A program made the translations under genes and the position numbers. From Teretinema zuelzerae (lineage in GTDB: Bacteria; Spirochaetota; Spirochaetia; Treponematales; Treponemataceae), in assembly GCF_021021555.1 (NCBI RefSeq), contig NZ_JAINWA010000003.1, positions 248,001 through 312,000 on the forward strand: 64,000 nt of DNA, read 5' to 3'. The notes beneath the pieces are model-generated. The model saw only the letters and a list, made by a program, of their open reading frames with translations. It was not told the origin of the DNA and made no database searches. Positions 14,890-20,807 of this stretch are shown here, in pieces. Position 1 is the first letter of the stretch. Each line of letters opens with the position of its first letter.

Positions 14890-15828
14890 ATGATAACAGA
14901 TTCTGTTCATGGAACATTGCCCCAGGTCTGCGAAGTACTCAAAACGGGAGAGCTTGAACAGGCGCATAGGGATATTAGAGAGTTATTACAACATGAACTT
15001 GAGAACGAAGACGTTATCTATACGCTAACCGGCATCAATTTCTGGACTGATAAGCTGAAAAAAGCACAGAACGCATCAACGGCCTTTGAGAAAGGAGAGT
15101 TTCTTGTATCGCAATGGAAACCATTCTCCCTGTTTATGTCGAAGCAAGGCCGGGAGAGAGAGCCTGTACTCTATGCGCTCAAGCAGTGTGCATTCAGAAT
15201 AGCGCTCGGTTTCTACCAATCCCTGTACAGGGAGGATGTTAACTCTCAGGATCCGGAATTATATAGAAAGATAGGTTTGTGTTATAAAGCTTTAGGAGAT
15301 TATGAACAAGCGCTGAAGCTGCTTGAACAGGCGCACGACGGCACGAAGGATTCACCGGCGATTCTTGCCGAACTGGCCGACTGTTATGCGTTGTGCGGCG
15401 AATCCAGACTTTCGAAGGTTCTTTTCAGGGAAGCTTTTTTTCAGGGAGCGTCTCAAGTTGAACTGTGTTTCCTTGAGTCGGAAGTAATAAAAAGACTTGA
15501 AGCCCAGGTTCATGCTTTGGGATATTCAGGGGCAGAATTAGCCGAATGGATCCCGGTATACGGGGTTTTATACGGTATTTTCAATATAAAAAGGGAATTA
15601 CGGGCGCTTGAGTTCGGGAAACTCAAACAGTCGATATTCGCTCTTGAGAATGAAATTCGGGATGCTGCTGCAGGGAATCGTTCAGTACTGATACCGCGGC
15701 TCATCAATCAGTATTTTTGGCTTATCGACCATTACGTTAACGTAGAGGATGAAAAGTCGAGAATTAATGAAGTACTACTTAAAATCAAATTATTGGATAC
15801 AGATGTGTACAACAAGTACACAATGTAA
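14890..15828 (+). CDS. TPR-containing protein encoded upstream of greA
   Basis: 312 residues, without signal peptide or membrane segment, so probably cytoplasmic. TPR pairs are clear in the middle (LYRKIGLCYKALGDYEQALKL; ILAELADCYALCGESRLSKVLF). The C-terminal 100 residues are helical (RELRALEFGKLKQSIFALENEI). It shares a promoter with the giant greA 24 bases downstream, which hints at a joint role in transcription, but this is inference from position. The function is not known to me. Confidence 0.7.
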   Translation: MITDSVHGTLPQVCEVLKTGELEQAHRDIRELLQHELENEDVIYTLTGINFWTDKLKKAQNASTAFEKGEFLVSQWKPFSLFMSKQGREREPVLYALKQCAFRIALGFYQSLYREDVNSQDPELYRKIGLCYKALGDYEQALKLLEQAHDGTKDSPAILAELADCYALCGESRLSKVLFREAFFQGASQVELCFLESEVIKRLEAQVHALGYSGAELAEWIPVYGVLYGIFNIKRELRALEFGKLKQSIFALENEIRDAAAGNRSVLIPRLINQYFWLIDHYVNVEDEKSRINEVLLKIKLLDTDVYNKYTM

Positions 15829-15852
15829 ACCGGATTTGCAGGAGAAAAGAAT

Positions 15853-18534
15853 ATGTCCGAGTCGTTGATTAAATCTGTCCAGGATATGCTGAATGAAGAG
15901 AAGTGGACCCGCGCCACAATCAGTAATTATTCAATCAGCAACTTCAAGGAACTGGATTCCATCCTACGCGATGCAAAGCAGGCTAACTGCATCGATGAAA
16001 TCAAGGCTCTGTGCGATGAACACTTGTCTCACACGAAAAACAGCATCATAGCGCTATACATATCCGGAATTTCCGCGCTTTCACGACAGCTTCTCGACGA
16101 TTCGGCCCTTATAAGCTTGATAAGCATTTTCATAGACAATCACAAAAACCCGATCGTAGAGTATCTGTGCGTCAGAATGCTCGATTACGGCGAATCGAAA
16201 TTCGCTCTCCGCACTCTTGCAGACTGCTACAAGGAATCGGACGACGAAAAGATCTACGACATTTGGGAGCGTCTGGTCAAAATCGACTATGAAGAAGCGG
16301 ACATCACAAAACAGCTGGCTGAAAAGTATGAAAAAGACGGTGAAATGGAACCAGCCGTCGAGTTTTATAAAAAAGCGCTGTATAGATACATCAACCGAAA
16401 GCAGGCGAACGCGGTCAAGGAAATCTGGTCGCATCTCGTCGCGTTGATTCCCGATGAAATCGATTTTTTCTATCATGTACAACGCAAAATTTCCAAAATC
16501 ATGGGCGACGACAGAAGCGCGATGCTCATGCAGGAAGTCTACGAGTACTACAAGACGAAACAGGAATGGGCGACCGCGATCGACATATTGAAAATCATTC
16601 TCGGTTACGACGACAAGGATTCGTGGGCGAGAAAAGAGATCGTCGAATGCTTCCGGGGCAAGCACGCCGGACACAGCCAGCTTGACGAATACATCCGCGC
16701 TTCGAACCTCAATCAGAGCTGGCGAAATGTTTTTGAAGCAATAGCTGAATTCGAAAAACATATTTCATTCGACGCGGGAAATTTCGTATACCATCGATCA
16801 TGGGGCGTAGGCCGCATCGCGAGCGTAAAAAACGACGAGATTACCATCGATTTCGCAAAGAACAGGGGCCATACGATGAGCCTCAAGATGGGCGTGAGCT
16901 CCCTGCAAACTTTATCGAAGGATCATATATCAGTTCTCCGCGCCATCTGGAAAAAAGAGAAGCTTTACGACAAAGTGAAGAGCGACATCACCTGGGCTTT
17001 GAAAACGATTATCAAGAGCTACGACAATAATTGCGACCTGAAAAAGGTTAAAGCTGAACTTGTTCCTTCTATTTTAACCGCGAATGAATGGACGAGCTGG
17101 AGCACGAAGGCGAGAAAGATACTTCAGGAGGATCCAAGCTTCGGCGTAAATCCTACGAACATCGACCTTTACGTCGTACGCGATCGGCCCATCTCTATAG
17201 AAGAAAAACTGTTCAACGAGTTCAAGGCTCAAAAGAACTTCTTCGCTAGAATCGACCTGCTCATGATGTTCTCGGAACGAGCGGAGCCCGATTCGGAATA
17301 TTTCGCTGAAATGTTCTCATACTTCGCCGGCTATCTCAAGGCGTTCAATCAGGTTAACGAACAGGTCATCGCGTCGTATCTAGTTGTTAAACAGCTCGTA
17401 GCGAAGCATCCCCACCTCAATCCGGGGCTTCACTATAATTTCGCAGAGCTTTTCTCGGAAATCGAAGATCCTTCGTCCGTTTATATAGCGCTGAAAGACT
17501 CCGGACTTAAGAGAAGCTATCTTCAGGATATAAAGAATTTCCTCATCAACTGGCCGGACATCTACGTAAAGCTGTTCCCTTCGGTTCTGAGCGTAGACAT
17601 CATCCAATCTCTTGTTCTCGACGGATATACCGAGAAAGTACAGACCCTGGCAGATCTTTGCTTCGATAATTACCGGGACTACAGAGAGGGCGCGATCTGG
17701 TTCTTCAAGAATTCGCAGGAAGCGGAGTGGTTCAAGGAACTCAATATTCCCTATGAGAAGCAGCTCATCACGCTTATTCACATTCTCGACATCACCTACC
17801 GCGAGATCGCCAACCATCGGGAGACAACCGAAAACAGAAAGATCAACCGCCAGGTGCTGAACATCCTCTTCGGCAAGGATGCCTTGCTGGAGAACTACAT
17901 CCTCAAGAGCGACGTAGACACCATTACCCGAATTTATACCCTCATCGACGACGTGAAGGATCTCGATCCTTCCTTGAAGATGAATCTTCGAAACAAGATC
18001 CTTGAGAATCACAAGGGATTCAAGTTCTTCGGTTCGGAAGAAAAAACCGTCGTATCGAGAGGTCTTATCGTCACATCGCGCATGCTTGAAGAAAAGAAAA
18101 AGCAGCTGCAGCAGATTATCGAGGTTGAAGTTCCCGCCAACTCGAAAGAAATCGGATTCGCCCTGTCCCTCGGGGACTTGAGAGAAAACGCTGAATACAA
18201 GGCGGCGAAGGAGCGTCAGAATATTCTCAATACAACGGCGACCAGGCTTCAGGAAGAAATCGACCGGGCGCAGACCTTCGATCCTACTACCGTCACCGTC
18301 ATCAGAGTGTCTTTCGGCACAATTGTAACGTTGAAAAACAACGACACCGGCCTCGACGAAACTTACACGATCCTCGGCCCCTGGGAATCCGATCCCGACA
18401 ACAAGATTATTTCCTACATGTCGCCGTTCGGAAACGCAATATTGAATCACCGGGAAGGCGAAAACCTTACCTTCACGATCAACGAAAAGGAATATAATTA
18501 TTCCATCAAAAACATTGCCGCGGCTTCTTTCTAG
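15853..18534 (+). CDS. greA: GreA-domain transcription elongation factor with a very long N-terminal region
   Basis: 893 residues against about 158 for standard GreA. The last 158 residues (about 736-893) form a complete GreA: a coiled coil with LGDLRENAEYKAAKER, whose acidic tip lets GreA stimulate RNA cleavage in backtracked RNA polymerase, then the FKBP-like C-terminal domain. Residues 1-300 and 365-730 are alpha-helical and TPR/HEAT-like. Between them, residues 308-355 (FVYHRSWGVGRIASVKNDEI onward) look like a CarD/Mfd-type tudor fold. Oversized GreA proteins are, to my memory, typical of treponemes. GGAG lies before the ATG, and a strong terminator follows the gene. Confidence 0.9.
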   Translation: MSESLIKSVQDMLNEEKWTRATISNYSISNFKELDSILRDAKQANCIDEIKALCDEHLSHTKNSIIALYISGISALSRQLLDDSALISLISIFIDNHKNPIVEYLCVRMLDYGESKFALRTLADCYKESDDEKIYDIWERLVKIDYEEADITKQLAEKYEKDGEMEPAVEFYKKALYRYINRKQANAVKEIWSHLVALIPDEIDFFYHVQRKISKIMGDDRSAMLMQEVYEYYKTKQEWATAIDILKIILGYDDKDSWARKEIVECFRGKHAGHSQLDEYIRASNLNQSWRNVFEAIAEFEKHISFDAGNFVYHRSWGVGRIASVKNDEITIDFAKNRGHTMSLKMGVSSLQTLSKDHISVLRAIWKKEKLYDKVKSDITWALKTIIKSYDNNCDLKKVKAELVPSILTANEWTSWSTKARKILQEDPSFGVNPTNIDLYVVRDRPISIEEKLFNEFKAQKNFFARIDLLMMFSERAEPDSEYFAEMFSYFAGYLKAFNQVNEQVIASYLVVKQLVAKHPHLNPGLHYNFAELFSEIEDPSSVYIALKDSGLKRSYLQDIKNFLINWPDIYVKLFPSVLSVDIIQSLVLDGYTEKVQTLADLCFDNYRDYREGAIWFFKNSQEAEWFKELNIPYEKQLITLIHILDITYREIANHRETTENRKINRQVLNILFGKDALLENYILKSDVDTITRIYTLIDDVKDLDPSLKMNLRNKILENHKGFKFFGSEEKTVVSRGLIVTSRMLEEKKKQLQQIIEVEVPANSKEIGFALSLGDLRENAEYKAAKERQNILNTTATRLQEEIDRAQTFDPTTVTVIRVSFGTIVTLKNNDTGLDETYTILGPWESDPDNKIISYMSPFGNAILNHREGENLTFTINEKEYNYSIKNIAAASF

Positions 18535-18593: not shown

Positions 18594-18662
18594 TCCGGGA
18601 CGCACTCGCGAAAAACAATATAAAAGAAAATTAAAACCGTGGAAGTGCAAAAGGGTATCATT

Positions 18663-20807
18663 ATGAAGAAAAAACAGGGATTTCTTGCGCTGATTCTTCT
18701 CATCGGATCGCTTCTAAGAATTCAAGCGGCAAGCGCCGATATCGTTGTTTTGATGGATACATCCGGTACGATACTTCCCTGGTTTGATCAGATAAATAGC
18801 CGGGTTCTGGTCGATATAACGGAAAAATTCGTTCGCCCGGGCGACACGTTTCATCTGGTTTCATTTAATTCCCGCGTAAATCTTGAAATCGTACAACCGG
18901 TAAAAACAGAATCAGACATATCAAAAATCGTTTCAAGATTTATGCTGTTGTATCCGTTGGGACAAAACTCGGACTTTATTTCCGGTCTTCATTTCACTTG
19001 GCAATATTTATCTACCCTGAACCAATCTACCGAAAAAATAGTCATCATCATTTCCGATGGAATATTCAATCCTCCGAAGAGCAGCGACTTTCAAGCCTTG
19101 ACGACTGAACAGGTAGAATCCGAAATCAACATGATGACTGCGAAAATCAGAGGCGCCGGATGGCAGGTATACTATGTAAAGTTGCCCTTTCCGGACGACG
19201 CCATTGTTACGAACCTCGACGGAACAACGCAAATTCATCCTGTTCCAGGATCAAAAGAGAAGAAAGAGCAGCACAGCCGAGCAATACAGGATAATATCGG
19301 AAATAGCGATTCGGATGGTTCGGAAAAAGCAGTTGTAACGTCTAAAGCCGGGGAAACAGGCGGATCGCCCGATGCAACAAAATCCACTTCAACCGGCACA
19401 GTATATCAGGACATATCGAGCACATTCACAGATGCCCTTGCGATAACCCCGAGCATTCTCCCGGAAGAGGGAGCCGAGCTGACCTTCACAGATTCGGCTT
19501 TCGGCATGCCTGAAGTCTCTTTTCCGGATAATCTCGGTAAACGGGGAAGACAGTTCGCCCTACCCTTGAAGATAACCAATCCATCGTCGCAGAATCTCAA
19601 TCTGGAACTTGTCAGCATTTACCTTAACGGTGCTGATGTTTTGGAAGAAAAAAACTTCATCCGCATCAATCCGGGAAAAACGGCAACGCTTAAAGCTCAA
19701 ATCAAAATTCCTGCAACCGTAGAATTGGGGTTGCATGATTTTCTCTTTACGCTTCGATTCGCAGGGAACACTCGCGTACTGCCTCAGGAAGGATTGGTTT
19801 CTGTCCAGCTTGTCCCGTTTTCCTTTACAACAGTCGTGAAAAACGGGAGAACATTTTCCTATGCTGTTTTCATTATCATTCTAACGGTTCTCTCGGCATT
19901 TCTAATCGCTTTTTTCATTTTGAAGCGCACAAGCAAACCCTCTCATGTATTACGCCGCGCGAATTACGGCGAAACTGATGAACGCCGAGAAACAAAGGAA
20001 TTTGCGGTATCGACTGGAACAGGCGATACCCTATCGGCCAAAAAAATCGAACAGATTACTCCGAAACCGTACTCGTCAGAAAGAATCGCATCAAGCCGTT
20101 TGTCGACCGAGCAACAGCAACTGGATCGCACGAATTCGAATGCGCTTACGCAAATGCCGGAATCCCGCAAAAAAATATTCCAGTTTGAAACGGCGAAGCC
20201 GTATGATTCAAGCGCTCTCGACGAATTCTCCGATGGCGCTGCAAGCAAACAACAAGCGGGCGAAACACTGGCGGCTTCGATTCAGAAGAAACCGGACCAA
20301 TCAACCGTGTCCGCTCTGGCCCGCTTGCAGGAAGAAGAGAAGCGCAACAGGCTCGCAATACTAAATGCCTCAAAGCCGGCCTACCACAAAGCGGAAACCG
20401 TAAGAAAAGGCGCCGATCCATCGCAACAGATTGAAATTAAATCCAACAAGCGGATCATGCTTGAGATTGTCGTCGACAGGCAAAATCCGCATATCGGAAA
20501 GAGGAATATTCATGTTTTAAAACCTGGCTCGCGTTTCTCGATCGGCGGAAACAATTCTTCATTCCTCGTATTCCTGGTTCGGTTCCCTTCGAGAATAGCC
20601 GAGCTCAGGTACGACGGAGAAAAATGCGATCTTGCAATCATCAAGCCTGAATACTTTCCGCTGGAAGCGAACAATATAATACCGGATTGCGTCGGCAGAA
20701 CTTTCAAGATCGTGTCGGATAGAGGCTACGAGGTCTCATTCAGATTCGCCGAATACGAAGATCCTGTGATTAAGCTGAACGAGATGCTGAGATCCATCAG
20801 CATCTGA
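18663..20807 (+). CDS. Membrane protein with von Willebrand factor A domain
   Basis: 714 residues from ATG 18663, chosen over the GTG at 18639 because AGGG lies about eight bases before it and a signal peptide starts there (KKKQGFLALILLIGSLL). The exported vWA domain covers about 25-200, with MIDAS-like DTSGT. A low-complexity linker and a beta-rich region follow. A transmembrane helix lies at about 398-422 (YAVFIIILTVLSAFLIAFFIL), then a charged linker and a C-terminal beta domain (GSRFSIGGNNSSF) that may be FHA-like. vWA domains mediate metal-dependent protein contacts; the partner is unknown. It converges with the HEAT gene. Confidence 0.8.
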   Translation: MKKKQGFLALILLIGSLLRIQAASADIVVLMDTSGTILPWFDQINSRVLVDITEKFVRPGDTFHLVSFNSRVNLEIVQPVKTESDISKIVSRFMLLYPLGQNSDFISGLHFTWQYLSTLNQSTEKIVIIISDGIFNPPKSSDFQALTTEQVESEINMMTAKIRGAGWQVYYVKLPFPDDAIVTNLDGTTQIHPVPGSKEKKEQHSRAIQDNIGNSDSDGSEKAVVTSKAGETGGSPDATKSTSTGTVYQDISSTFTDALAITPSILPEEGAELTFTDSAFGMPEVSFPDNLGKRGRQFALPLKITNPSSQNLNLELVSIYLNGADVLEEKNFIRINPGKTATLKAQIKIPATVELGLHDFLFTLRFAGNTRVLPQEGLVSVQLVPFSFTTVVKNGRTFSYAVFIIILTVLSAFLIAFFILKRTSKPSHVLRRANYGETDERRETKEFAVSTGTGDTLSAKKIEQITPKPYSSERIASSRLSTEQQQLDRTNSNALTQMPESRKKIFQFETAKPYDSSALDEFSDGAASKQQAGETLAASIQKKPDQSTVSALARLQEEEKRNRLAILNASKPAYHKAETVRKGADPSQQIEIKSNKRIMLEIVVDRQNPHIGKRNIHVLKPGSRFSIGGNNSSFLVFLVRFPSRIAELRYDGEKCDLAIIKPEYFPLEANNIIPDCVGRTFKIVSDRGYEVSFRFAEYEDPVIKLNEMLRSISI

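Follow-up and report, generated by a model that had tools for sequence, protein, structure and literature searches.

Domain layout and family of giant GreA

The window analysed here, a stretch of 64,000 nucleotides from Teretinema zuelzerae, encodes a GreA protein of 893 residues (15853–18534, + strand), which raises the question of what the long region ahead of the GreA domain contributes and whether it offers the transcription machinery a second point of contact. The open reading frame is preceded by a Shine-Dalgarno-like AGGAG (15840–15844, +) positioned 8 bases 5′ of the ATG. Prediction and comparison divide the protein, termed giant GreA below, into five parts, all on the + strand: helical arm 1 (residues 1–304; 15853–16764), a UvrD/PcrA-like tudor domain (residues 308–355; 16774–16917), helical arm 2 (residues 359–720; 16927–18012), a flexible linker (residues 728–737; 18034–18063) and a GreA domain (residues 738–893; 18064–18531).

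Arm 1, all-helical in the AlphaFold2 model, forms a TPR-like superhelix. Its profile matches consensus TPR structures (best E = 3e-28), and TPR chains cover residues 1–296 in the structure comparison, so that the TPR-like character that the first-pass annotation ascribed to the arms is borne out at least for arm 1. Arm 2 is likewise modelled as helical and has no Pfam family above cut-off over residues 359–720. Whole-model matches to CTR9, SKI and similar TPR proteins are weak (TM about 0.12) and were taken as generic superhelix. The linker joining the arms to GreA has pLDDT values below 50 at residues 728–735 and coincides approximately with the point at which the GreA-less proteins of Leptospira-type genomes stop.

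The GreA domain, composed of a coiled coil and a C-terminal globular domain, is complete, as had been claimed from the sequence: GreA_GreB_N scores 58.9 bits at residues 739–807 (Pfam cut-off 24.5) and GreA_GreB scores 79.5 bits at residues 818–888 (cut-off 26.9). VIA-align superimposes the domain onto GreA in entry 9a7t with a Z score of 16.6 and onto E. coli GreA (PDB 1grj) with a Z score of 15.8. The acidic pair at the coiled-coil tip of GreA is catalytic; it aligns with D775 and E778 of the DLRE motif (18175–18186, +), kept in 89 and 91, respectively, of the sequences with a GreA domain. Giant GreA thus resembles stand-alone GreA such as that of E. coli in having the complete two-domain fold with its acidic tip, placed here at the C-terminus, whereas the stand-alone protein measures about 160 residues and has neither arms nor tudor. 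A single GreA_GreB_N and GreA_GreB match makes giant GreA the only Gre factor found in the T. zuelzerae genome.

Over residues 4–892, the protein matches the NCBIfam equivalog PRK14720 (NF011309, “transcription elongation factor GreA”, 906 positions) with E = 0 and 1129.8 bits against a curated cut-off of 714 bits, the same family end to end with the same architecture. Giant GreA is therefore what spirochaetes normally have, and T. zuelzerae is no exception in this respect. Matches are present in 146 of the 149 genomes of the phylum sample, with full-length homologues throughout the phylum, and the architecture occurs in both Treponema and Borrelia. We take the gene to be TP0019 in T. pallidum and BB0132 in B. 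burgdorferi; a literature search with these gene names gave only a genome comparison, and little seems to have been published.

A second NCBIfam family, PRK06330 (NF004969, “transcript cleavage factor/unknown domain fusion protein”, 718 positions), which is presumably chlamydial, aligns with residues 240–888 at a score below its cut-off, and its match, beginning at residue 240, leaves most of arm 1 uncovered. The fusion family shares the tudor: spirochaete tudor segments match this model in 53 of 89 cases (best E = 1.7e-10). On the strength of this model, we assume that the architecture is also present in Chlamydia. The giant GreA architecture is thus already known from PRK14720 and PRK06330, and the annotation of PRK14720 names neither the tudor domain nor the upstream partner described below. 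What is new is the presence of a UvrD-like tudor inside a Gre factor: none of the domain libraries searched names the tudor, and the largely open-access literature searched describes neither this domain nor the conserved neighbour upstream nor the separation of GreA in Leptospira-type genomes.

The middle domain is a tudor fold closest to UvrD/PcrA

Residues 308–355 had been read in the first-pass annotation as a CarD/TRCF-like polymerase-interacting domain. In the AlphaFold2 model, residues 311–354 form five strands (311–314, 318–326, 329–334, 340–343 and 352–354) and one short helix in the strand order of a tudor (SH3-like) barrel, with a mean pLDDT of 88.5 in the full model and 89.1 when the domain is modelled alone. 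Fold prediction and structural comparison by Foldseek and VIA-align thus agree on a tudor, and an unrelated fold was not seen.

The type of tudor was addressed by profile and by structure. A 91-residue segment (residues 285–375) scanned alone against Pfam scores 22.9 bits with DUF3553 (cut-off 20.3), which is above cut-off only under this condition, 17.1 bits with PcrA_UvrD_tudor (cut-off 23.9) and 14.7 bits with CarD_TRCF_RID (cut-off 23). Because 17.1 bits lies below the PF21196 cut-off of 23.9, we label the domain UvrD/PcrA-like and not a family member; two giant GreA relatives in the phylum (G040 and G116) do reach that cut-off. At E ≤ 0.1, PcrA_UvrD_tudor matches 63 of 89 homologous segments (best E = 1.5e-7) and CarD_TRCF_RID matches 66 of 89 (best E = 1e-4). 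Profile-profile comparison by HHalign ranks UvrD tudors first at 95%, followed by the RIDs of Mfd (78%) and CarD (74%). Among the controls, the reversed UvrD, Mfd and CarD family profiles and unrelated segments of giant GreA each remain below 1%, and reversing the profile of the giant GreA tudor itself gives 5%. A motif-matching artefact is ruled out because these controls lie far lower and the fold is predicted confidently.

The five best PDB matches in Foldseek are all UvrD/PcrA tudors, with 5dma at the top. VIA-align places Thermus UvrD (7egt_B) first, with a Z score of 6.7 and 1.4 Å over 47 residues, closely followed by further UvrD chains and a single eukaryotic tudor, and then by CarD (4l5g_A and 4kbm_B, both Z 5.8) and RapA (Z 5.5). 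Rows within one Z unit count as tied, and structure alone therefore separates UvrD from CarD weakly. The distinction is carried by the profile comparison and by a gapless alignment of 42 residues between the giant GreA tudor and Thermus UvrD (E = 0.075 in that search). Within the T. zuelzerae genome, the giant GreA tudor is the sole PcrA-type tudor detectable, at E 0.02.

The C-terminal tudor of UvrD/PcrA (PF21196; PDB 5dma, 7egt, 7egs and 9dqs) is consequently the nearest known relative in both fold and profile, and the motif HRxWG[IV]G is common to 5dma and giant GreA. The two differ in placement: the helicase tudor is C-terminal, whereas that of giant GreA is an internal domain of a Gre protein. 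The CarD/TRCF RID (PF02559) belongs to the same tudor superfamily and has a similar first-strand motif, but CarD and Mfd sequences contain a long loop between strands 2 and 3 that giant GreA is without. Of the CarD/TRCF-like reading, the tudor fold and a sequence pattern beyond chance therefore stand, while the CarD/Mfd type proves second best. Together, fold, profile and conservation support the assignment of the middle domain as a tudor of the RNA-polymerase-interaction type.

Conservation and putative binding residues

An alignment of 103 Spirochaetota sequences identifies the tudor as the most conserved stretch of giant GreA, above the GreA domain, with a mean information of 2.41 bits over residues 308–355, compared with 1.81 bits for GreA, 1.68 bits for arm 1 and 1.39 bits for arm 2. 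H314, G320 and F334 are identical in 103/103 sequences, and H314 is the most informative single residue of the whole protein. The first-strand motif VYHRSWGVGRI (residues 312–322; 16786–16818, +) includes the invariant H314 and G320, so the conservation anticipated for its GVGRI segment is present.

In PcrA, mutating H681, W684, K712 or L714 each severely reduces RNA polymerase binding (PMC5397179). Their counterparts in giant GreA are H314, W317, H340 and M342, with the exact pairing of H340 and M342 taken from the sequence alignment and not from superposed coordinates. The histidine and tryptophan are kept, and K712 and L714 are replaced by H340 and M342. Across the alignment, position 314 is H in 103/103, position 317 is W in 82 and F in 13, position 340 is H, R or K in 96/103, and position 342 is M in 95/103. 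The alignment thus points to four candidate residues for a tudor binding face.

A conserved upstream partner and a natural split

A gene for a 312-residue TPR protein (14890–15828, +) sits 24 bases 5′ of giant GreA on the same strand. In an adjacency survey, 79 of 104 loci have a co-directional homologue directly upstream. Borrelia-type and Leptospira-type genomes are among them, these two labels being inferred from place and gene content. A further 24 genomes were picked from families without observed adjacency, and 19 of them encode a full-length homologue at another place. From the adjacency and homologue counts, the TPR gene and giant GreA form a conserved two-gene unit. W220 of the TPR protein is invariant in 35/35 aligned sequences, and the protein persists where GreA is unfused. 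This pattern of co-occurrence suggests a physical complex between the TPR protein, a candidate partner, and the arm-tudor protein. On the other side of giant GreA, a co-directional gene encodes a protein of 722 residues (18639–20807, +) whose start resembles a von Willebrand A domain (VLMDTSGT); it is found beside giant GreA mainly in near relatives.

Leptospira-type genomes (family f15, which looks to include Leptospiraceae; loci L083 1-10196, L086, L100, L103 and L105) encode an arm-tudor protein of about 740 residues that lacks GreA and stops close to the linker; their GreA comes from a gene of its own at another locus. In the arm-tudor tree, a single branch (SH-aLRT 99) sets the Leptospira-type rows apart from the rest, so that one change, in either direction, explains the fusion or split of GreA. 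Because these proteins keep the tudor without GreA, the role of the tudor does not depend on fusion. Leptospira-type genomes thus offer scaffold and GreA naturally separated.

Possible docking sites and alternative roles of the tudor

UvrD/PcrA tudors bind a β-hairpin motif that occurs both in the SI1 region of RpoB and in UvrB; on the β subunit, their site differs from the one used by Mfd (PMC8318588). The search for RpoB covered 30 genomes (loci L220–L249), and the region was aligned for most. The RpoB motif VDxxTGE is partly kept in T. zuelzerae, reading IDTEGGE. It is clear in G007, G082 and G042, among others, whose UvrD tudor exceeds the family cut-off, and degenerate or missing in the remaining genomes; it is absent from Borrelia-type RpoB, where the giant GreA tudor is nevertheless conserved. 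The known UvrD motif in RpoB was therefore rejected as a general docking site: with the motif degenerate or lost while the tudor is conserved, it is possible in T. zuelzerae and not a general explanation, and docking may occur elsewhere on the polymerase or on another protein. As a separate observation, the helicase motif in RpoB varies widely within the phylum and seems clear mainly where a strong UvrD tudor is present.

The strongest competitor to a polymerase-docking tudor, though a rather unlikely one, is that the tudor binds another protein, such as the upstream TPR partner or UvrB, and recruits it to a polymerase held only by GreA. UvrD tudors do use this motif to bind UvrB as well (PMC8318588; PDB 7egt, among the Foldseek matches), the UvrB of T. 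zuelzerae reads a near-consensus NPVSGE against the weaker IDTEGGE of RpoB, and the Leptospira-type proteins retain the tudor without GreA. The UvrB motif is kept in several treponeme-group genomes; it is, however, degenerate (SPLTKK) in the Borrelia-type genome too, in which the tudor is conserved, and the link to GreA, which most of the phylum retains, speaks for a site on the transcription complex.

It is improbable that the tudor merely spaces the parts of a long helical scaffold, or touches nucleic acid weakly within it, and makes no polymerase contact of its own. Its position between two helical arms is consistent with a spacer, UvrD tudors also bind DNA weakly (PMC7585439), and the conserved G318, G320, F334 and L351 could serve folding only; yet H314, the most conserved residue, aligns with PcrA H681, mutation of which leaves the domain folded but impairs polymerase binding, and conservation of the tudor far exceeds that of the arms. 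Equally doubtful is the original reading as a CarD/Mfd-type RID bound to the β1 domain, since the CarD_TRCF_RID matches, the HHalign values for Mfd and CarD, the CarD Z scores and the likeness of the Mfd motif VVH..YGIGR to VYHRSWGVGR are outweighed by the first rank of UvrD/PcrA in the profile-profile and Foldseek comparisons, the missing strand 2–3 loop with its gapless Thermus UvrD alignment, and the separate Mfd and CarD already encoded in the T. zuelzerae genome.

A proposed tethered Gre factor

From the domain layout, we infer a polymerase contact, a tethering function and a role for the partner, and with moderate confidence we favour giant GreA as a tethered Gre factor, in which the tudor docks on the transcription machinery, the linked GreA promotes cleavage, and the arms and TPR partner serve as a scaffold. 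The tudor face comprising H314, W317, H340 and M342 would dock the protein, most likely on the RNA polymerase β subunit. The GreA coiled coil, carried on the flexible linker (728–737), could then enter the secondary channel of a backtracked polymerase, where the GreA domain would promote transcript cleavage. The arms and the upstream TPR protein may together hold or recruit other factors, and in Leptospira-type genomes the same scaffold would work with a separate GreA.

A wider form of this proposal is tentative, and we would give it slightly less than an even chance: spirochaetes, and Chlamydiae through PRK06330, may use a two-point Gre factor in which the tudor anchors the scaffold and TPR partner and GreA is resident on the elongation complex, the scaffold being old and serving fused or separate GreA alike. 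Should the tudor indeed hold polymerase, spirochaetes would rescue stalled transcription with a polymerase-anchored factor and not with a transient visitor, and a repair helicase and a cleavage factor would share one type of domain.

One further frame related to the scaffold was observed. A second short frame of 205 residues in another genome of the phylum sample (G120:C43:2579-3112) matches residues 5–181 of arm 1 and lies apart from the giant protein.
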